A DNA stretch of 64,000 nt. Origin: Arenibacter catalasegens (GTDB lineage: Bacteria > Bacteroidota > Bacteroidia > Flavobacteriales > Flavobacteriaceae). Below, piece by piece: positions 6,956-46,553 of this stretch; positions within the stretch are counted from its first letter, which is position 1, and every line of letters begins with the position of its first letter. The translations under genes and the position numbers were made by a program. The stretch covers positions 143,515-207,514 of the forward strand of contig NZ_PHQQ01000006.1 of the NCBI RefSeq assembly GCF_002909235.1, given 5' to 3'. The notes below the pieces were generated by a model. The model was given only the letters and a program-made list of their open reading frames with translations, searched no databases and was not told the origin of the DNA.

Positions 6956-7921
6956 CTATTTGTTTCTGTTCCATAACGGTAAAATCAGAAAAGATATTGC
7001 GCCAAAAACCACTACCATTAAAGTTTGTGAAATCCACATTATCCATCCAAAAGCATCTCCAGACACCTTGCTTATGCCAAAAATTGCCAATGCACTGCTT
7101 ACGGCGATGGGATAAATGCCTATTCCCCCATTGGTGGCAGACATGGCAAAGGCTCCGGCAACAAAGGCGACCAATAACTGGCTAATACTGAGATCTATGG
7201 TTTCCAAAACGGTATATTTTATCACCCAGAACATGGCAATATAGGCGAGCCATATAAATAGGGTATGAAAAACAAAACCCCATTTATTCTTCATTCTAAA
7301 GATACTAAGGATACCATCCAAAAGACCTTTTAAAAATAATCTCAATTTTACGGCCAATTTTGATTTGGATTTTTTTACCAGATATATCATTAAGGCCATG
7401 CCTAAAATTGCAGAACCCAACAATATGGATAGTAGTACAAGATTAATCCCCTTTTGCTCGAGGAAACCCCAGATAATTTCAGTTTGTAAAAACAGGGCAA
7501 TACCAACTATCAAAAATAGCATAATCAGGTCTATAACCCTCTCCGTTACTATAGTTCCAAACCCTTTTTCAAAAGGGACATGCTCGTAAGTAGCCAATGC
7601 CGTGGCCCTTAGTATTTCTCCTGATCTTGGTATGCCCAAATTTGTAAAATAGGCAGTTAAAATGATCAATATATTGTTGAATAATTTTGGTCTAAAGCCT
7701 AGCGGTTCTAATAAATAATTCCATCTTATGGCTCTGGATAGGTGGGTAAGGATACCTAAAAAAATGGATATACCGACCCAAAATAGGTCGGCATTTTTTA
7801 TATAATGTATTATTTCATCCCTATCCTCTTCAGAGGTGGAATTGTATGAATACCAAACTAAAAACACGCCCAATAATATAGGAAGAAATGTTTTTAAGGT
7901 TTTCTTTATGGAAGACTTCAA
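6956..7921 (-). CDS. Lysylphosphatidylglycerol synthase TM-domain / flippase-like membrane protein
   Basis: A 321-residue integral membrane protein of the UPF0104 / lysylphosphatidylglycerol-synthase transmembrane family. About eight hydrophobic spans are visible. The family signature segments are LSRAIRWNYLLEPLG near residue 65, the loop NLGIPRSGEILRATAL near 95-110, and the C-terminal GGIGIYPIAVS. Only the membrane half of MprF is present, with no aminoacyl-transferase domain. Such proteins are usually thought to translocate or bind lipids. It starts 2 nt after the panD stop, so it is probably co-transcribed with panC and panD. The link to pantothenate synthesis is positional only. Confidence 0.85.
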   Translation of the reverse strand: MKSSIKKTLKTFLPILLGVFLVWYSYNSTSEEDRDEIIHYIKNADLFWVGISIFLGILTHLSRAIRWNYLLEPLGFRPKLFNNILIILTAYFTNLGIPRSGEILRATALATYEHVPFEKGFGTIVTERVIDLIMLFLIVGIALFLQTEIIWGFLEQKGINLVLLSILLGSAILGMALMIYLVKKSKSKLAVKLRLFLKGLLDGILSIFRMKNKWGFVFHTLFIWLAYIAMFWVIKYTVLETIDLSISQLLVAFVAGAFAMSATNGGIGIYPIAVSSALAIFGISKVSGDAFGWIMWISQTLMVVVFGAISFLILPLWNRNK

Positions 7922-38881: not shown

Positions 38882-39130
38882 TCATTTATATTTATTAGTC
38901 AAATAATTGGAGTATTCAGATTTATAATCAAAATCAGCAGGAATTCTAGTTCCTGTAGAAATGCTTTTTACAAAGGGTGAAATTTCAAAATCTAGGGAAC
39001 TTTTTTCAGAGACCAGGGATTGAAGGTAAGCTTCTACTATTCGTGATAAACTCATTTTTTTGTCGGAGGCATATTCTTTTGCTCTTTTAATTGTCTTCTT
39101 ATTAAGCCTCAAGGTTAATTTTGTGTCCAT
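38882..39130 (-). CDS. Orphan DUF6364-type antitoxin
   Basis: An 82-residue ribbon-helix-helix-type protein: MDTKLTLRLNKKTIKRAKEY, then KKMSLSRIVEAYLQSL, and a C-terminal arm FVKSISTGTRIPADFDYKSE. This is the layout of DUF6364 antitoxins that normally precede a PIN-domain (VapC-like) RNase and neutralise it through the C-terminal arm. The frame extends eight codons further (ATG at 39154), but MDTKLTL is the usual start. No toxin gene follows, so it is either a relic or an anti-addiction gene acting on a toxin elsewhere. Confidence 0.75.
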   Translation of the reverse strand: MDTKLTLRLNKKTIKRAKEYASDKKMSLSRIVEAYLQSLVSEKSSLDFEISPFVKSISTGTRIPADFDYKSEYSNYLTNKYK

Positions 39131-39261
39131 TATAAATTCATCCAACTTTATCATAATAAGAAATTATATGTTATTAGATATAAAAATAGCAAAAATTTTA
39201 AATTTATATTCTTTTGCATATAGTTTGACTATTGTTATCTGTAAATATCGAGATTGTACCC

Positions 39262-39744
39262 CTACCTCAAAACAATCAATTTCCAATCCTGTCCGCCTGC
39301 ATTGTAGGTTTTTAGGTCCCTAAACCCTACCGTATAATGTGCCTCCAAGGAACGCAGGTTGGTGGCATCTACCTCTGTGATGATTTTGTTAAACCGAGGT
39401 TGAAGGTTATTTTTCATGGTCTCGTACCGTTTTCTAAAAATGCCCTGCCGCCGATACTCCTTGTCTATACAGCTTTGCCCCATTACCATATAAGATTCCG
39501 CTTTGGGCATTACTGTTGCTATCTTCTTGAACATGGGTTTTAACACCTCTATATCGTTCCTAAAACTGGGATGCATGCAAAGCGCATAGCCTACCACTTT
39601 CTCTTGGTCCTTGGCTATGATATGTGGACAAGCGGTATTCATCTTTGTTAGGAGTTCCAAAGTATGGGATACGGTTACAAAACCTTCTTTTTCTTCTTCG
39701 TCTAAAGGTGTTTGCCCATCATGATAGTTTAACTCTAATCCCAT
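39262..39744 (-). CDS. Chimeric GNAT acetyltransferase with mobile-mystery-protein-B N-terminus
   Basis: The 160-residue protein joins two sources. Residues 1-21 (MGLELNYHDGQTPLDEEEKE) are the start of mobile mystery protein B, a Fic-domain partner of mobile mystery protein A. From about residue 18 on it matches the C-terminal ~143 residues of the GNAT protein at 40385-40918 with about 86% identity by eye. GNAT motif A is present as DKEYRRQGIFRKRYE, where the paralog has RRRGIFRKLYE. It lacks the first ~33 residues of the paralog. Its ATG overlaps the mobile mystery protein A stop by 10 nt, the usual mobA-mobB arrangement, so it is expressed from that promoter. Substrate unknown, and activity uncertain. 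Confidence 0.8.
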   Translation of the reverse strand: MGLELNYHDGQTPLDEEEKEGFVTVSHTLELLTKMNTACPHIIAKDQEKVVGYALCMHPSFRNDIEVLKPMFKKIATVMPKAESYMVMGQSCIDKEYRRQGIFRKRYETMKNNLQPRFNKIITEVDATNLRSLEAHYTVGFRDLKTYNAGGQDWKLIVLR

Positions 39745-40196
39745 AATGATTTTCTTAACTCTCTTTTAATTTCAATAGCAAGGTCTTTTATTGTTTTATT
39801 GATTTTTTCATCTCCAATTCCTTGGTTCTCTAGTTTCATATTTTGATTGGTCCTCAATACTATTTTTTGAGCCAGTTTTTGAGATTTTAGGGTGATTAAA
39901 TTGTCAATGGCTCCATCGTTCGGGACAAATCCATATACAAATTTCATGTCCAATGCATGGCCAACATCTCTTAATTTATTAATTGTAATTTGGCCTGAAG
40001 CTTCACGTTCTTCAATTTTTTGTATCGCTCCTTTTGTTAATTGTAGTTTGGCCCCTAGCTGTTCCCTTGTCATGTTAAGTGTAGTCCTAATTGCGTTTAT
40101 CCATCCTTTTTCTGGGACCAAGACCATCTCAGCATCTTTAAATTTATCTAATTTTAGGTCTAGTTGTTCTATTAGTAGTTGTTTTTTATTTCTCAT
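39735..40196 (-). CDS. Mobile mystery protein A (XRE-family regulator)
   Basis: A 153-residue helix-turn-helix protein. The mobile mystery protein A hallmark PEKGWINAIRTTLNMTREQL leads into the HTH (residues about 36-86: QLGAKLQLTKGAIQKIEERE), followed by TINKLRDVGHALDMKFVYGFVP and a helical C-terminal tail. In the family it sits directly before mobile mystery protein B (Fic) and behaves like the regulator/antidote half of a mobile pair. Here B is reduced to its first ~20 codons fused to a GNAT domain. Two palindromic sites upstream (40237-40250, 40268-40283) are likely operators for autoregulation. Confidence 0.88.
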   Translation of the reverse strand: MRNKKQLLIEQLDLKLDKFKDAEMVLVPEKGWINAIRTTLNMTREQLGAKLQLTKGAIQKIEEREASGQITINKLRDVGHALDMKFVYGFVPNDGAIDNLITLKSQKLAQKIVLRTNQNMKLENQGIGDEKINKTIKDLAIEIKRELRKSLWD

Positions 40197-40236
40197 TTGT
40201 TCTCAATAATATACGTACGATTAAAAAATTAAAAGT

Positions 40237-40250
40237 ATACTTATATGTAT
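40237..40250. promoter_or_regulatory. Operator-like site 1 upstream of mobile mystery protein A
   Basis: ATAC-N6-GTAT inverted repeat, 41 nt upstream of the regulator start. It has the same half-sites and spacing as the second site, whose centre is 32 bp (three helical turns) away. Confidence 0.5.
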
Positions 40251-40267
40251 TCTTTTTTTAAAAAAGG

Positions 40268-40283
40268 TATACGGATAAGTATA
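40268..40283. promoter_or_regulatory. Operator-like site 2 upstream of mobile mystery protein A
   Basis: TATAC-N6-GTATA, a perfect 5-bp inverted repeat with a 6-bp spacer, matching site 1. Confidence 0.5.
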
Positions 40284-40303
40284 AAATAAATGGTTTATAG
40301 AAC

Positions 40304-40358
40304 GTCTGCCCCGCTAGTCCGAAGCCCCGCTGGCGCGAGCGTCACCCTAGTTCCCGAG
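40304..40358. repeat. GC-rich REP-like patch
   Basis: A short GC-rich stretch with CGCTGGCGCGAGCGTCAC between A/T-rich sequence and the GNAT gene end. It resembles extragenic palindromic repeats seen in many Bacteroidota genomes, here with a degenerate second arm. Other copies could not be checked. Confidence 0.35.
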
Positions 40359-40384
40359 TCTTACGATTATTCCATAAAATTCCG

Positions 40385-40918
40385 TTACCCCAAAACAATC
40401 AATTTCCAATCCTGCCCGCCTGCGCTATAGGTTTTTAGATCTTTAAACCCTACCGCATAATGGGCCTCCAGCGAACGTAGATTGCTGGCATCCACCTCCG
40501 TGATAATGCTGGTAAAATAAGGTTGAATGGTGTTTTTCATGGTCTCGTACAGCTTTCTAAAAATGCCCCGCCGCCGGTACTCCTTGTCTATACAGATTTG
40601 CCCCATTACCATATAGGGTTCCGCTTTGGGCACTACAGAAGCTATTTCCTTGAACATGGGTTTTAATACTTCTATATCGTTCCCAAATAGGGGATGCATG
40701 CAGAGCGCATAGCCCACCACCTTCTCTTGGTCCTTGGCTATTATATGTGGACAAGCGGTATTCATCTTTGTCAGGAGTTCCAAAGTATGGGATACGGTAA
40801 CAAAACCTTCTTTTTCTTTTTCGCCAGGACCTAGGTTGGTAATCAGGTTCTTTTGTTGCAAGCTCAGTATTTGCTGTAATTCGCTGTCCTTGGTACAGCT
40901 TGTAACGACTACCTCCAT
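40385..40918 (-). CDS. GNAT-family N-acetyltransferase (intact copy)
   Basis: A 177-residue acetyl-CoA-dependent acetyltransferase. The GNAT core is clear: HIIAKDQEKVVGYALC (beta-strand 3-4), YMVMGQICIDKEYRRRGIFRKLYE (motif A with R-x-x-G-x-x-R), TEVDASNLRSLEAHYAVGF (motif B region). The N-terminal ~33 residues (MEVVVTSCTKDSELQQILSL) are missing from the chimeric paralog at 39262-39744. Its ATG is 1 nt past the M61 peptidase stop, so it is the native second gene of that unit. The accessory island begins just downstream. Substrate unknown. Confidence 0.9.
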   Translation of the reverse strand: MEVVVTSCTKDSELQQILSLQQKNLITNLGPGEKEKEGFVTVSHTLELLTKMNTACPHIIAKDQEKVVGYALCMHPLFGNDIEVLKPMFKEIASVVPKAEPYMVMGQICIDKEYRRRGIFRKLYETMKNTIQPYFTSIITEVDASNLRSLEAHYAVGFKDLKTYSAGGQDWKLIVLG

Positions 40919-40919
40919 C

Positions 40920-42728
40920 TTATTCCACTTTTAACCAATCCTTTCTATTTTTTAGTACCTGCTTGCTCGGTTTTTCGCCATCCTTTTCCATAAGTTCTAT
41001 GGTATAGGTGGGATCTCCTGTTAAGACAACAGTGGTGGATTTTGGAATCCCGTAACGGGTGTAGGCTACTTGCACACTTTCCCCTACCTTAAATGATCCA
41101 ATTAATTCCCCAAAACTCTGGTTAGAAGTGAGGGGGAAATTGTTTATTGAGGTAATCACATCCCCATAATCTAGCCCTGCGGTATAGGCTGGACTTCCCA
41201 TGACGGTATTCCGTTGAATATTGCCCACCCCAAATTGGTTGATGTTTAAACTGGCCCCAAAATAAGGTTTGTCAGTGGCACGCTTTAGCACTATGCCAAC
41301 AGATTTGAACAGCTCCTCATAATCGGGCATATCACTGTTATGGATATATTGATCAAAAAAGCGATTTCCAAATTCCTTTCCGGCGTATTGTACCAAGGTT
41401 AAACGCAGATCGGACAGCGTATAGGGAATTTCCTGTTTCCCATAGGTCTGCCAAACTAATTTCATGTAATCATCCAAGTTCAACTTGTTTTGTCGCAACG
41501 AAAGGTCTAGGGCCAATCCCAAAACACTGCCATAGGAATAATAGGAGATAAAGGTATTGTCCCTATTTACAGGATCTACGGAAGTTGAGGCGTCCACAAA
41601 GGGTGCCTGATAGCTCATTTCTATGGGATTAAAGAACTGTCGGGCGGGCGAGTTCCAAACATAGTTGAAAGTGCCCGCAAGGCCCTCTACATATTCCTTA
41701 GGAGTGATGATGCCTGCGCGACAAAGGATAAAATTGGTGTAATAACTGGTAAAACCTTCCGCAAACCAAAGCTCCCCGCTCATATTAGCTTCGGCAAAAT
41801 TGAAGGGTTCCAAAGCCTGTGGCCGAATACGTTCTACATTCCAACAATGAAAAAATTCATGGGCAACGGTGCCTATATTATTTTTCATGCCACCTTCTGC
41901 GAATCCTTCCCTGTCCGTAAGAATGGTAGAATTTCTATGTTCCATACCATCACCGGAAGCATTGGGAATATAGCATGCCAAAAAGGTGTAGGTTCCATAA
42001 TCATAGCTGGGAAGTTCCCCAAAAACGTCTTTTTCGGCCAATACCACTTTTTTCACCTGCTCAAAATAGGTGTCCAGCTCTGCTTCCGTACCGTTGTGGT
42101 GCAATACAAATTCTATGGTTTGTTGCTGGCCATTATGGTCCACTGTAAATTGGCGTAGTCCATAATTGCTGATTTCCGTGGGGCTATCCATAAAGTACTG
42201 TAGGTTGGGCGCGGTATAGGTATTGCCCATAACCTTGGGCATTTGGGTGGCCACTTTCCAGTTGAGGTCTTCCCGGACCTTAAAGTCCACTTCTATTTTC
42301 CGATTACTTAGATCGGTCACGTACATAAAGGTGGCCGGGATATTTAGATGGGCATGGGTCTCATCTATTTGTGCATAGGTGCCGTCCCCACGATTGGCAA
42401 AAAGGGTATAACTTATCTTCACCTCTCCATCATGACCGCTAATATCCCATTGGTAGGGATTGGGCCTATTAATTTCCAAGGCTTTTCCCTTGCTATCGGT
42501 GGCCCTAAAATTATATACGTTCTTGGCAAACTCGTGCAGGGCATAGCGCCCAGGGGAGGAGCGGCCCATACGTACCGATAGTACAGCTGCATCCAGCTCG
42601 GGAAAGGTCGCTGTGATTTCCGCTTCGTGATGTACGGCATTCTCAAAGGATATGGTGTAGTGGTTGGTCTGACCTTGCAAACTCATGGAAATGGCAAGGA
42701 ATAAAAGGCTAAGGATTCTAAATTTCAT
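40920..42728 (-). CDS. M61-family metallopeptidase with PDZ domain
   Basis: A 602-residue exported peptidase of the glycyl-aminopeptidase family M61. It has a signal peptide (MKFRILSLLFLAISMSLQGQ), an N-terminal beta domain, and a zinc site HEFFH at 290-294 within TVAHEFFHCWNVERIRP. The downstream Glu ligand lies in GELWFAEGFTSYY, and a C-terminal PDZ domain at about 500-570 contains MGSPAYTAGLDYGDVITSIN. It cleaves N-terminal residues from peptides in the periplasm. It is followed directly by the GNAT gene. Length is normal for M61. Confidence 0.95.
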   Translation of the reverse strand: MKFRILSLLFLAISMSLQGQTNHYTISFENAVHHEAEITATFPELDAAVLSVRMGRSSPGRYALHEFAKNVYNFRATDSKGKALEINRPNPYQWDISGHDGEVKISYTLFANRGDGTYAQIDETHAHLNIPATFMYVTDLSNRKIEVDFKVREDLNWKVATQMPKVMGNTYTAPNLQYFMDSPTEISNYGLRQFTVDHNGQQQTIEFVLHHNGTEAELDTYFEQVKKVVLAEKDVFGELPSYDYGTYTFLACYIPNASGDGMEHRNSTILTDREGFAEGGMKNNIGTVAHEFFHCWNVERIRPQALEPFNFAEANMSGELWFAEGFTSYYTNFILCRAGIITPKEYVEGLAGTFNYVWNSPARQFFNPIEMSYQAPFVDASTSVDPVNRDNTFISYYSYGSVLGLALDLSLRQNKLNLDDYMKLVWQTYGKQEIPYTLSDLRLTLVQYAGKEFGNRFFDQYIHNSDMPDYEELFKSVGIVLKRATDKPYFGASLNINQFGVGNIQRNTVMGSPAYTAGLDYGDVITSINNFPLTSNQSFGELIGSFKVGESVQVAYTRYGIPKSTTVVLTGDPTYTIELMEKDGEKPSKQVLKNRKDWLKVE

Positions 42729-42992: not shown

Positions 42993-44141
42993 ATGACGGA
43001 ATTTCCAAAAAAATTAACGGCAAAGCTCACCGAAAGACAGGCCAATAACGCCCTTAGGAAGTTGCCCGTGCCCATTGGTTTGATCGATTTTTCTTCTAAT
43101 GATTACTTGGGATTAGCCAGAAACCAGACCATTTTTAAAAATGCCGCCAATATCCTGAAAAAGAAAGGTAGTATTGCCAATGGGGCTACGGGATCTAGGT
43201 TGTTAACGGGAAATAGTGGACTATATAGTGAATTGGAAGATTTTTTGACAGATTTTTTTGGTTCAGAGTCATCCCTGGTCTTCAATTCGGGCTACGATGC
43301 CAATATCGGATTTTTTAGTGCCGTGCCCCAGCGTACAGACATTGTATTTTATGATGAACTGTCCCACGCCAGTATTCGTGACGGCATTGGAATGGGCCGG
43401 GCACAAAGCTATAAATTTAAACACAATGCTGTAGCCGATTTAAGCCGGCAGCTAGACCGTGTGCTGGAAAGCAAAACCGATAGTGATATCTACGTGGTTA
43501 CGGAGTCTGTCTTTTCCATGGATGGGGATACACCGGATTTGGAAGCCTTGGTAGCGTTATGCGAATCCAAGGGAGCCTATTTGGTAATCGATGAAGCCCA
43601 TGCCATAGGAGTATTTGGTAAGAAAGGAGAGGGATTGTTGAAAGAACTGCAATTGCAGGATAGGGTATTTGCCAGGATCGTCACCTTTGGGAAAGCTATG
43701 GGCTGCCATGGTGCGGCAATTTTGGGGAGTGATGCCCTTAAAAGTTATTTGGTGAATTTTGCGCGCAGTTTTATTTATACCACGGGTATGCCCCCGCATT
43801 CGTTGGCGACCATATTGGCAGCCTGCGAACAGGTAGCGGGCACAAAAGGGGAGCAAAATCAACTTAGGAATAATATTGATTTTTTTAAAAATGAATTGAA
43901 GACTAATAACCTTCAGACTAATTTTATTTCTAGCAATTCCGCCGTACATTGTTGTCTGGTGGAAGGCAATGAAAAGGTGAAAAAATGGGCTCAGCATTTA
44001 CAGGAAAACGGATTTGATGTAAAGCCTATAATGTCGCCCACAGTACCAGAAGGAAAGGAACGTTTGCGGTTTTGTTTGCATAGTTTTAATACCGAAAAGG
44101 AAATTAGTGAGGTGCTTTTACAATTGTCCAATTTATTTTAG
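42993..44141 (+). CDS. bioF: 8-amino-7-oxononanoate synthase (KAPA synthase)
   Basis: The 382-residue PLP enzyme condenses pimeloyl thioester with L-alanine to give KAPA, the first step of biotin ring assembly. Alpha-oxoamine-synthase features are DFSSNDYLGLA, GATGSRLLTGNS, DELSHASIRDGI with His125, VIDEAHAIGVFG (Asp200/His203) and the PLP lysine Lys234 in TFGKAMGCHG. Length is normal. It heads the bioF-DUF2007-bioD cluster with 4 nt to the next start. Identity as bioF rather than a related oxoamine synthase is supported by bioD, bioA and bioB nearby. Confidence 0.94.
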   Translation: MTEFPKKLTAKLTERQANNALRKLPVPIGLIDFSSNDYLGLARNQTIFKNAANILKKKGSIANGATGSRLLTGNSGLYSELEDFLTDFFGSESSLVFNSGYDANIGFFSAVPQRTDIVFYDELSHASIRDGIGMGRAQSYKFKHNAVADLSRQLDRVLESKTDSDIYVVTESVFSMDGDTPDLEALVALCESKGAYLVIDEAHAIGVFGKKGEGLLKELQLQDRVFARIVTFGKAMGCHGAAILGSDALKSYLVNFARSFIYTTGMPPHSLATILAACEQVAGTKGEQNQLRNNIDFFKNELKTNNLQTNFISSNSAVHCCLVEGNEKVKKWAQHLQENGFDVKPIMSPTVPEGKERLRFCLHSFNTEKEISEVLLQLSNLF

Positions 44142-44145
44142 CAGT

Positions 44146-44532
44146 ATGGAGAACCAAGAATTTTATACCCTGGCCGCTTTTGAATATGTGGCCGATGTTC
44201 AAATATTAAAAGGCCGCTTGGTGTCGGACGGTATCCCTGTTTTTCTCAGGGATGAGAACACCCTTAATTCAGATCCCCTAATCAGTAATGCCATAGGTGG
44301 AGTGAAGCTACAAGTGTATTATTCCGATAAGGAAAGAGCTACCGAAATATATAATGAAATAAGATCTTATACCATGGATGATCATGGCAATATTAGAACT
44401 TGCCCCAATTGTAGCGCGCAAAGAATGGAGATATATTTTAACAGGAAAGGCCTATTTTATAAACTTTTTCCTTTTTTTGAAAAAAGAAAGTATAAATGTC
44501 TAAATTGTGAGTTTATAACAGAACCAAATTAG
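44146..44532 (+). CDS. DUF2007-domain protein with C-terminal zinc ribbon
   Basis: A 128-residue protein from the ATG at 44146 (the frame opens earlier inside bioF, but MENQEFYTLAAFEYVADVQI is the normal DUF2007 start). The DUF2007 / putative signal-transducing domain (LKGRLVSDGIPVFLRDEN, GGVKLQVYYSDKERA) is followed by two Cys pairs (CPNC and CLNC), giving a zinc-ribbon-like tail. It sits between bioF and bioD with 4-nt and 1-nt gaps, so it is in the biotin operon. A role in biotin synthesis is not known. Confidence 0.85.
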   Translation: MENQEFYTLAAFEYVADVQILKGRLVSDGIPVFLRDENTLNSDPLISNAIGGVKLQVYYSDKERATEIYNEIRSYTMDDHGNIRTCPNCSAQRMEIYFNRKGLFYKLFPFFEKRKYKCLNCEFITEPN

Positions 44533-44533
44533 A

Positions 44534-45145
44534 ATGAAGCAGTTTTTTGTAACAGGAATATCCACAGATGTAGGAAAAACAATCACCTCTGCCGTTATGG
44601 TCGAGGCTTTGGAAGCAGATTATTGGAAACCCGTCCAAACAGGGGACGATTCCGATAGCGAAAAGATTTCCGAATTAATTTCAAATACCAAAACTGTAAT
44701 ACATAAAAGCAGCTACTCCTTAAAAGCACCTATTAGTCCACATGCCGCCGCTGCTCTGGAAGGTGTTTATATAGATCACAATAAAATAAACGAACCCAAA
44801 ACCGAAAACCATATGGTAATCGAAGGAGCGGGTGGCGTATTAGTGCCCCTAAACGATTCCGATACCATGCTGGATATCATTATGCCTACCTATTACGTAA
44901 TTGTAGTGGTGAAGCATTATTTGGGAAGTATTAATCATTCCCTCTTGACCATTAAATGGCTTTTGTTAAAAGGTTATGATGTGGCCGTACTTTTTAATGG
45001 GGAACCTAATTCCGCTTCCGAGGATATAATTACCAAGATTACAGGAGTCCCTGTTCTGGGAAGAATTGGTCAAGAAGCAAATTTGACCAAGGAAGTTGTT
45101 AAGAAATATGCAGAACAATTGCGTCCTGCGCTTATGGCTCTGTAA
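44534..45145 (+). CDS. bioD: Dethiobiotin synthetase
   Basis: A 203-residue ATP-dependent carboxylase that closes the ureido ring of biotin from DAPA and CO2. The P-loop TGISTDVGKT is at residues 7-16, with YWKPVQTGDDSDSE, APISPHAAA and the conserved EGAGGVLVPL. Length is slightly shorter than E. coli. It starts 1 nt after the DUF2007 gene. A 139-nt gap separates it from bioA. Confidence 0.95.
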   Translation: MKQFFVTGISTDVGKTITSAVMVEALEADYWKPVQTGDDSDSEKISELISNTKTVIHKSSYSLKAPISPHAAAALEGVYIDHNKINEPKTENHMVIEGAGGVLVPLNDSDTMLDIIMPTYYVIVVVKHYLGSINHSLLTIKWLLLKGYDVAVLFNGEPNSASEDIITKITGVPVLGRIGQEANLTKEVVKKYAEQLRPALMAL

Positions 45146-45284
45146 TATTTTTAAATGGTGAACTAATTCCTTGGGATTTGTAGGGATTGTTGTTTCGTTA
45201 TTCCGCTTAAATGAAATGGGATCAGGGTAGTGTTTTTAGTCATTATTCCCCATCTTTGCACCTCTATTTAAAAAGGATATTCAA

Positions 45285-46553
45285 TTGAAAAATCTTTCGG
45301 AAAGGGATCAGAAGCACCTTTGGCACCCACTTACGCAACATAAGCTACACCCCAAAATGCTTGGCATAATTAAGGCTAAGGGAGCTGTGCTATATGATGA
45401 ACAGGGCAAGGAATACATAGATGGGATATCCTCTTGGTATACCTGTATGTATGGGCATTGTAATGATGCCATAATTGAGAAAGTCTACGCTCAAATGCAG
45501 CAATTGGATCAAGTGGTCTTTAGTGGATTTACCCACGAGCCTGCCATTGCGCTTTCTGAGGCGTTGATCTCTTTGTTGCCTTCCAATCAAGAAAAATTAT
45601 TTTTTTCGGACAACGGTTCCACTTCAACCGAAATCGGAATAAAGATGGCCTTGCAGTATCATCAGAACCAAGGGAAAAAGCGTTCTGTTTTGTTGGCTTT
45701 TGAGGATGGTTTTCATGGGGATACTTTCGGGGCGATGTCCGTCTCTAGCCTTTCCGTATATAACGGCCCTTTTGAGGATTATTTTATTGATGTAAAAAGG
45801 ATTCCCGTTCCTACGGATGACAATATTGAGAGCCTGTTACATGAATTGGAAAATACCATAGCGCTTGATGCCATTGCCGGATTTATCTATGAACCTTTGG
45901 TACAGGGAGCGGCGGCCATGAAAATGCACAAGCCGGTACATCTGGAGAAAATTTTAAAGGTGATAAAATCCCATGGCGTATTGGCCATAGCCGATGAGGT
46001 TATGACGGGATTTGGAAAGACGGGAAAACACTTTGCTTCAGATTATATGGAAGTAAAGCCAGATATTATATGCATGTCCAAGGCTCTTACGGCTGGAATG
46101 TTGCCCATGGCGGTGACCAGTTGTACACAAGAAGTTTACGATGCTTTTTACAGTGATGATATTGCAAAGGGGCTATTCCATGGCCATACCTATACAGCAA
46201 ATCCGTTGGCATGTGCTGCAGCCTTGGCGGGAATTGAATTGCTTACATCAGACGAAATTCAAAAAAATATTGGTCAAATAATCCAATGGCACCAGGAGTT
46301 TGATGCTGAAATAAAAGATCATCCCAAAGTAGGAGCCACTAGGCAAACGGGGATTATCTACGCGCTGGACCTTAATATTGTTATGGAACGCTATGGAAAT
46401 GTGAGGGATAAATTGTTTAAGCATTTTATGGATTCCGGAGTTTTTCTTAGACCTCTTGGCAATACCATTTATATTTTGGCGCCCTATATTACAACTAAGG
46501 TGCAGATGCAAAAAATCTACAACAGTATAAAAGAAGTTCTTAATTCATTTTAA
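45285..46553 (+). CDS. bioA: Adenosylmethionine--8-amino-7-oxononanoate aminotransferase
   Basis: A 422-residue class-III PLP aminotransferase making DAPA from KAPA. It has LWHPLTQHK, DGISSWYTCMYGHCN, DNGSTSTEIGIKMALQY, the DEVMTGFGKTGK pocket and the PLP lysine Lys266 in DIICMSKALTAG. The start is a TTG at 45285: the family N-terminus DQKHLWHPLTQ lies only a few residues in, and no ATG is available before it. A CATCTTTG box 26 nt upstream resembles the -7 consensus. Ketoacyl synthase follows 3 nt after the stop. Confidence 0.95.
   Translation: MKNLSERDQKHLWHPLTQHKLHPKMLGIIKAKGAVLYDEQGKEYIDGISSWYTCMYGHCNDAIIEKVYAQMQQLDQVVFSGFTHEPAIALSEALISLLPSNQEKLFFSDNGSTSTEIGIKMALQYHQNQGKKRSVLLAFEDGFHGDTFGAMSVSSLSVYNGPFEDYFIDVKRIPVPTDDNIESLLHELENTIALDAIAGFIYEPLVQGAAAMKMHKPVHLEKILKVIKSHGVLAIADEVMTGFGKTGKHFASDYMEVKPDIICMSKALTAGMLPMAVTSCTQEVYDAFYSDDIAKGLFHGHTYTANPLACAAALAGIELLTSDEIQKNIGQIIQWHQEFDAEIKDHPKVGATRQTGIIYALDLNIVMERYGNVRDKLFKHFMDSGVFLRPLGNTIYILAPYITTKVQMQKIYNSIKEVLNSF

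Follow-up and report, generated by a model that had tools for sequence, protein, structure and literature searches.

A chimera of the mobile mystery protein B start and a probably inactive GNAT acetyltransferase remnant behind mmpA in Arenibacter catalasegens

GNAT acetyltransferases are the toxins of type II toxin–antitoxin pairs of the TacT/AtaT type, where the antitoxin is an RHH protein. In the mobile mystery A/B pair (TIGR02612/TIGR02613), the gene for the HTH-type regulator MmpA overlaps the start of mmpB, which encodes a protein with a Fic domain whose motif we take to be HxFxxGNGR. Passages in two papers (PMC4750851, PMC4886054) only name mobile mystery proteins in lists. Homology-facilitated illegitimate recombination, as outlined in PMC3240628, creates a new junction next to homologous sequence. 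Here we describe an open reading frame (ORF) in A. catalasegens in which the start of mmpB is joined to part of a GNAT gene; coordinates refer to the window, i.e. the whole 64,000-nucleotide stretch of DNA that was analysed, unless they are given for a locus of a relative. We consider it probable that this chimera arose when recombination took place at a short sequence common to the two parent genes, and that it is now a decaying, inactive remnant of a GNAT gene.

The hybrid ORF lies on the minus strand at positions 39262–39744 and has 160 codons, beginning within the last codons of mmpA with a 10-nt overlap; its coordinates, frame and overlap are as given in the original prediction. Codons 1–20 of mmpB are joined in frame to residues 38–177 of GNAT, with codon 21 of the hybrid corresponding to residue 38 of the complete GNAT protein. 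The mmpB-derived part, start codon included, occupies positions 39685–39744 (minus strand). These first 60 nt are identical to mmpB of the relative G008 at 54 positions and the 57 nt past the join at only 14, bearing out the earlier claim that the first ∼20 residues are an mmpB start. Residues 1–40 of the G008 protein matched positions 39744–39637 in a tblastn search (E = 4e-8), and the hybrid opens with an mmpB segment of the MGLxxxYxxGQTPLDEEEKEG type overlapping mmpA. When G008 mmpB was compared with the window, only the 5′ start was matched, apart from one match at chance level (E = 0.99).

The TIGR02613 profile gave no match to the hybrid ORF, which lacks the Fic domain of mobile mystery protein B. 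As this profile starts at about residue 12 of mmpB (residues 12–197 of the mmpB product of G342 align to profile positions 2–186), it is unable to score residues 1–21 of the hybrid, and DNA and tblastn comparisons were used there in its place. Across the whole A. catalasegens genome no TIGR02613 match exceeded the cut-off, the single weak match (24.4 bits) lying elsewhere. Therefore, the Fic body was either lost or never arrived.

The GNAT-derived part (39262–39684, minus strand; identified by blastn and Acetyltransf_1) corresponds to residues 38–177 plus the stop codon of a complete GNAT acetyltransferase of 177 residues encoded nearby (40385–40918, minus strand; profile search). An ungapped blastn alignment of the hybrid with the complete gene, the shared stretch included, gave 385 identities in 438 nt (88%, E = 8e-161); the first 60 nt past the join are identical at 58 positions, and the protein identity of the GNAT part is 86%. 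Pfam Acetyltransf_1 (PF00583) scored 23.9 bits over hybrid residues 34–141, passing the gathering cut-off of 20.7. The join falls on a purine-rich stretch of 13–14 nt, AAGAAAAAGAAGGT (39682–39695, minus strand), which is common to GNAT and several mmpB genes and has one mismatch in G008 mmpB; the placing of the junction on a shared EKEG-coding stretch had thus been read correctly.

The mmpA gene beside the hybrid (39735–40196, minus strand) is intact, scoring 128.3 bits against the TIGR02612 cut-off of 122.6, and is without an mmpB body. The upstream neighbour of the complete GNAT gene encodes an M61 peptidase (40920–42728, minus strand; profile search), and a bio cluster (42993–46553) adjoins the M61–GNAT pair; bioD and bioA scored over their cut-offs, and bioF is the best name for its gene yet fell below its cut-off. 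On the other side of the hybrid lies an antitoxin-like DUF6364 gene (38882–39154, minus strand; profile search). No adjoining PIN-domain partner was found for this gene, one PIN protein from G011, whose DUF6364 relative has such a partner, giving no match in the window.

The GNAT gene is present in 14 of 18 Arenibacter genomes, that of A. catalasegens included, and only the latter has two copies; the hybrid occurs in this genome alone (1 of 18). Among the 120 protein relatives listed of 1241, only the window's own protein has an mmpB-type start. The original prediction had named the same N-terminus on this GNAT in many genomes, independent of protein A, as an argument against itself; no such case was seen in the 18 genus genomes or the 120 relatives listed. 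A scan of genome contigs, which may not have covered the A. catalasegens genome, returned two loci, neither with the hybrid. The hybrid protein is the sole member of its cluster and comes from one contig. This, together with the single assembly, is what an assembly artefact joining two loci might produce, but we regard such an artefact as extremely improbable: 12% of sites differ between the two GNAT copies, only 13–14 nt are shared at the join, the frame is kept, and a misjoin cannot produce the private changes described below.

mmpA is present in 4 of the 18 genus genomes; in a sample of 397 genomes of the family, 37 contained it, at 38 loci counting that of the window. When each mmpA locus was counted once, there were 39 others, or 40 with that of the window. 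An mmpB-like gene with the Fic motif follows mmpA in all 39 other loci, its frame being broken in three. mmpA stands beside a GNAT hybrid in just 1 of the 40 loci, that of the window, and the two do not form a conserved two-gene toxin–antitoxin pairing. In the three loci where the mmpB frame is broken (L071, L081 and L083; 3 of 39), mmpA is intact, assembly errors being possible; loss of the Fic partner by mmpA may not be rare.

The private codon changes of the window's mmpA comprise 3 nonsynonymous and 10 synonymous (1 and 13 in G008 mmpA), and by these counts the gene looks constrained. Upstream of it, near-palindromes of the ATACATAT/GTATAC type (40222–40297, minus strand) are a likely candidate for an MmpA operator. 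Near-palindromes of the ATACATATNTGTATACTTTT type lie upstream of mmpA at 40200–40300 in the window and in 10 of the 16 relatives' loci inspected (16 of the 39; L064, L104, L118, L127, L129, L131, L132, L134, L136 and L139), frequently in multiple copies on visual inspection. Five of these 16 loci have TTTGTAAAC-type repeats upstream of mmpA instead.

A sigma-70-like site with 9 of 12 matching positions (39775–39746) lies ahead of the hybrid start. The scan for promoters and terminators found 7 sites against 6.9 in shuffles, which is the chance level, and therefore no promoter is shown for the hybrid. The suggestion that GNAT had captured the promoter and first codons of mmpB thus stands for the start codon and the overlap, which are kept, and not for the promoter. 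It is likely that the hybrid is still co-translated with mmpA.

We then compared structural models of the two GNAT copies. In the model of the complete protein, beta1 spans residues 4–7 and alpha1 residues 11–23, with a mean pLDDT of 91 for residues 1–10 and 96 for residues 11–20. In the hybrid model, these two intervals have mean pLDDT values of 48 and 58 and there is no beta1, so that the hybrid does not have the complete GNAT fold with beta1–alpha1. Seven columns that are at least 90% conserved (L14, Q16, I17, L18, L20, Q21 and N24) lie within the part lost from the hybrid. The rest of the hybrid model is GNAT-like (mean pLDDT 81.9), which counts against an inactive remnant. Fold searches with both models returned GNAT-fold proteins (Ard1, NatA/NatC, RimI, ArsN and others), and no match naming a substrate.

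Conserved residues are also changed. Among the 57 aligned relatives (of the 120 listed), Leu123 is present in all 57 and is Arg in the hybrid; Ile108 (48 of 57) has become Ser and Ala155 (53 of 57) has become Thr. None of the 57 relatives has Arg at 123, Ser at 108 or Thr at 155. Other changes in the hybrid are known in relatives (Gly79Arg in 4 of 57, Glu91Lys in 1 of 57), a point against decay. The invariant residues R115 and G118, which belong to the presumed acetyl-CoA loop, are kept.

The hybrid has 9 nonsynonymous and 6 synonymous private codon changes. The corresponding counts are 1 and 9 for the complete copy (Fisher p = 0.018), and they total 8 and 26 when the complete copy is pooled with G008 and G005 (p = 0.022). 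This excess of amino-acid change is a modest signal, because other GNAT genes also show many such changes: the single-copy GNAT gene of G008 has 4 nonsynonymous and 3 synonymous private changes, and private residues number 8 in G015, 8 in G016 and 19 in G004, with 9 in the hybrid. In simulated trials, 15–25 random substitutions left the 160-codon frame open in 56–38% of cases, so that its being open says little in favour of function; together with the Acetyltransf_1 score over the cut-off, the open frame counts against the explanation that we favour.

A working partner swap, in which MmpA would control a GNAT-derived toxin or modifier instead of a Fic protein, would fit the in-frame fusion with its retained start and mmpA overlap, the retention of R115 and G118, the 3:10 ratio in mmpA, the operator-like repeats that remain upstream and the Acetyltransf_1 match. 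We nevertheless find it quite unlikely, since the beta1–alpha1 part is lost, Leu123Arg and Ile108Ser fall at positions conserved in 57 of 57 and 48 of 57 relatives, there is more amino-acid change than in the complete copy, and no second occurrence was seen in the 18 genus genomes or among the 120 relatives listed. The original prediction that a working acetyltransferase had taken the place of Fic was not upheld, given the missing beta1–alpha1, one invariant and two well-conserved positions changed, and the excess amino-acid change. It is very unlikely that MmpA gained an acetyltransferase-derived partner when recombination on the shared EKEG-coding stretch put the GNAT domain where the Fic body had been, so that a toxin–antitoxin-like module would have switched effector class at a stroke. 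On the models and codon changes, we predict that the hybrid is inactive and probably a decaying by-product of recombination.

The two GNAT copies have different downstream flanks, which were compared with those of relatives using the first 160 nt behind GNAT in 13 genomes and 300 mononucleotide shuffles. The flank of the complete copy scored above all 300 shuffles in 6 of the 13 relatives, with margins of 5 to 11 points in G001, G007, G011 and G015 and of only 1 and 2 in G012 and G017; the segment at 40353–40375 (minus strand) is common to the GNAT flanks of the first four, and by the small margin to those of the other two. The flank of the hybrid (39161–39261, minus strand) scored above all shuffles in 1 of 13: within 160 nt of GNAT, it matched G008 alone (score 99, best shuffle 31). 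Each of the remaining comparisons was matched or beaten by at least 22 shuffles. The G008 match is continuous from GNAT and unbroken, and there the hybrid-type flank leads into HTH, HipA_N and HipA_C genes. Part of this flank is found again ∼330 bp behind GNAT in G016, where an operon of similar make-up follows it, and at a distance of 3.6 kb in G007; this part may travel with a toxin–antitoxin module. An AT-rich stretch before the G008 HTH gene recurs away from GNAT in G007 (L055, 11910–11969) and G016 (L059, 7302–7365), and may be a promoter shared by toxin–antitoxin modules. The GNAT gene of G008 has itself lost its stop codon, extending the frame by 10 residues (L054, near 7480–7516).

Synonymous divergence (dS) between the complete and hybrid copies is 0.40, compared with 0.30 for complete–G008, 0.35 for hybrid–G008 and 0.35 for G008–G005; the two copies of one genome are about as divergent as those of different species. 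Because the flanks differ and dS is at the species level, an origin from two haplotypes is favoured over a recent local duplication, and the join most likely arose where GNAT haplotypes of two lineages met. The original prediction of a diverged copy of the neighbouring gene thus holds as regards the ∼86% identity, but a simple local copy is unlikely with flanks known from different species.

Several results point the other way. In the site patterns, 6 sites group the two copies as sisters, 5 join the complete copy to G008 and 2 join the hybrid to G008; and none of six topologies, using 10 of the 15 sequences, was rejected by the AU, KH or SH test (lowest AU p = 0.098). One of the six was excluded by the RELL set alone, with 5000 replicates, fewer than the program advises. 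The tree of the GNAT 3′ part has support of 28–41 at the nodes placing the two copies. The sister-leaning site counts, the 58 of 60 identical nt past the join and the unrejected topologies are points against a meeting of two haplotypes. They would suit a tandem duplication of GNAT within this genome, after which mmpAB would have inserted between the two copies and a deletion would have occurred; so would the nearness of the copies. This course of events is unlikely, however, as each of the two flanks stands behind GNAT in other species and dS between the copies is as great as that between species.

If an element carrying a replacement 3′ end had integrated site-specifically into GNAT, this could account for the direct repeat of more than 420 nt on both sides of mmpA. 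The only ORFs of at least 60 residues between the repeats are mmpA and a 105-residue antisense frame, so there is no recombinase gene between them, and the fused stretch is a truncated mmpB rather than a recognisable element end. We consider such an integration highly improbable.

The 3′ side of the M61–GNAT pair is a variable slot (L051–L063; 37600–39262 in the window). Of 13 relatives inspected over 3.5 kb behind GNAT (588 bp for G009), 7 have a toxin–antitoxin-like module there: ParD–ParE in G001, G007, G017 and G012, HTH–HipA_N–HipA_C in G008 and G016, and DUF6364–PIN in G011. One example of each type was scanned, ParD scoring under its curated cut-off, and the modules of G007, G017, G012 and G016 were classed by their resemblance to the scanned examples. 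In G015, a DUF2652-like gene lies directly behind GNAT, and in the window the slot holds mmpA and the DUF6364 gene. The slot looks like a site of repeated turnover, in which mmpAB would be one more guest.

A precedent for mmpAB beside GNAT is seen in the corresponding slot of G342, from another genus of the family, where the order is bioA–bioD–bioF, mmpA–mmpB, a short HTH-like piece (read from the sequence letters), a GNAT relative (51% identical) and a umuC-like gene. Both mobile mystery genes exceed their cut-offs (mmpA 133.4 bits, mmpB 248.1 bits). The bio cluster is the same one that adjoins M61–GNAT in the window; M61 had no match on the G342 contig. The order bioF–mmpA–mmpB–GNAT (L104, 5006–6809) was found in 1 of 39 mmpA stretches, which mostly extend ∼6 kb on each side, some being ended early by contig ends. 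In G342, mmpAB and GNAT run in the same direction, and 857 bp separate the stretch coding for EEEKxG in mmpB from that coding for EKxKEG in GNAT. A single deletion between such stretches in a G342-like order would give a fusion of the hybrid type.

We therefore favour the following sequence of events. GNAT haplotypes of two Arenibacter lineages would have met at this site, a slot in which toxin–antitoxin modules seem to turn over, with mmpAB either standing between two GNAT copies or arriving with one of them. A deletion between short repeats would then have removed the mmpB body and roughly 34 codons from the start of the second GNAT gene; a one-step homology-facilitated illegitimate recombination could have had the same result, and the data favour neither. 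The order GNAT–mmpA–mmpB–GNAT was not found in any genome examined, which counts against this explanation. MmpA would thereby probably be left as a regulator lacking its Fic partner, and the truncated GNAT encoded behind it would fold poorly and be neither enzyme nor toxin.

The locus provides a readable example of gene fusion in a toxin–antitoxin turnover slot, as relatives hold counterparts of each parent, of the join and of either flank. It also illustrates the loss of a Fic partner by an HTH regulator. An active hybrid would mean that the effector class had changed in one step, but the evidence points to decay. The hybrid is most likely a record of gene shuffling and not a new working module, and is unusual mainly for its readability.

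Compared with the mobile mystery A/B pair, the locus has the same mmpA, the same 10-nt overlap and the mmpB start with 20 codons, whereas the mmpB Fic body is absent and a GNAT remnant stands in its place. Compared with the M61-linked GNAT of Arenibacter and its relatives, residues 38–177 are alike (86% to the nearby complete copy), whereas the N-terminal beta1–alpha1 part has been swapped for an mmpB tail and conserved residues are changed. Homology-facilitated illegitimate recombination, as described in PMC3240628, would yield a join of this kind, although here we infer it from one product, which a two-step deletion explains equally well. As in pairs of the TacT/AtaT type, a GNAT domain lies directly behind the gene for a DNA-binding protein. 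The hybrid differs from these pairs in that its fold is truncated, its regulator is the HTH-type MmpA rather than an RHH protein, and it is predicted to be inactive.
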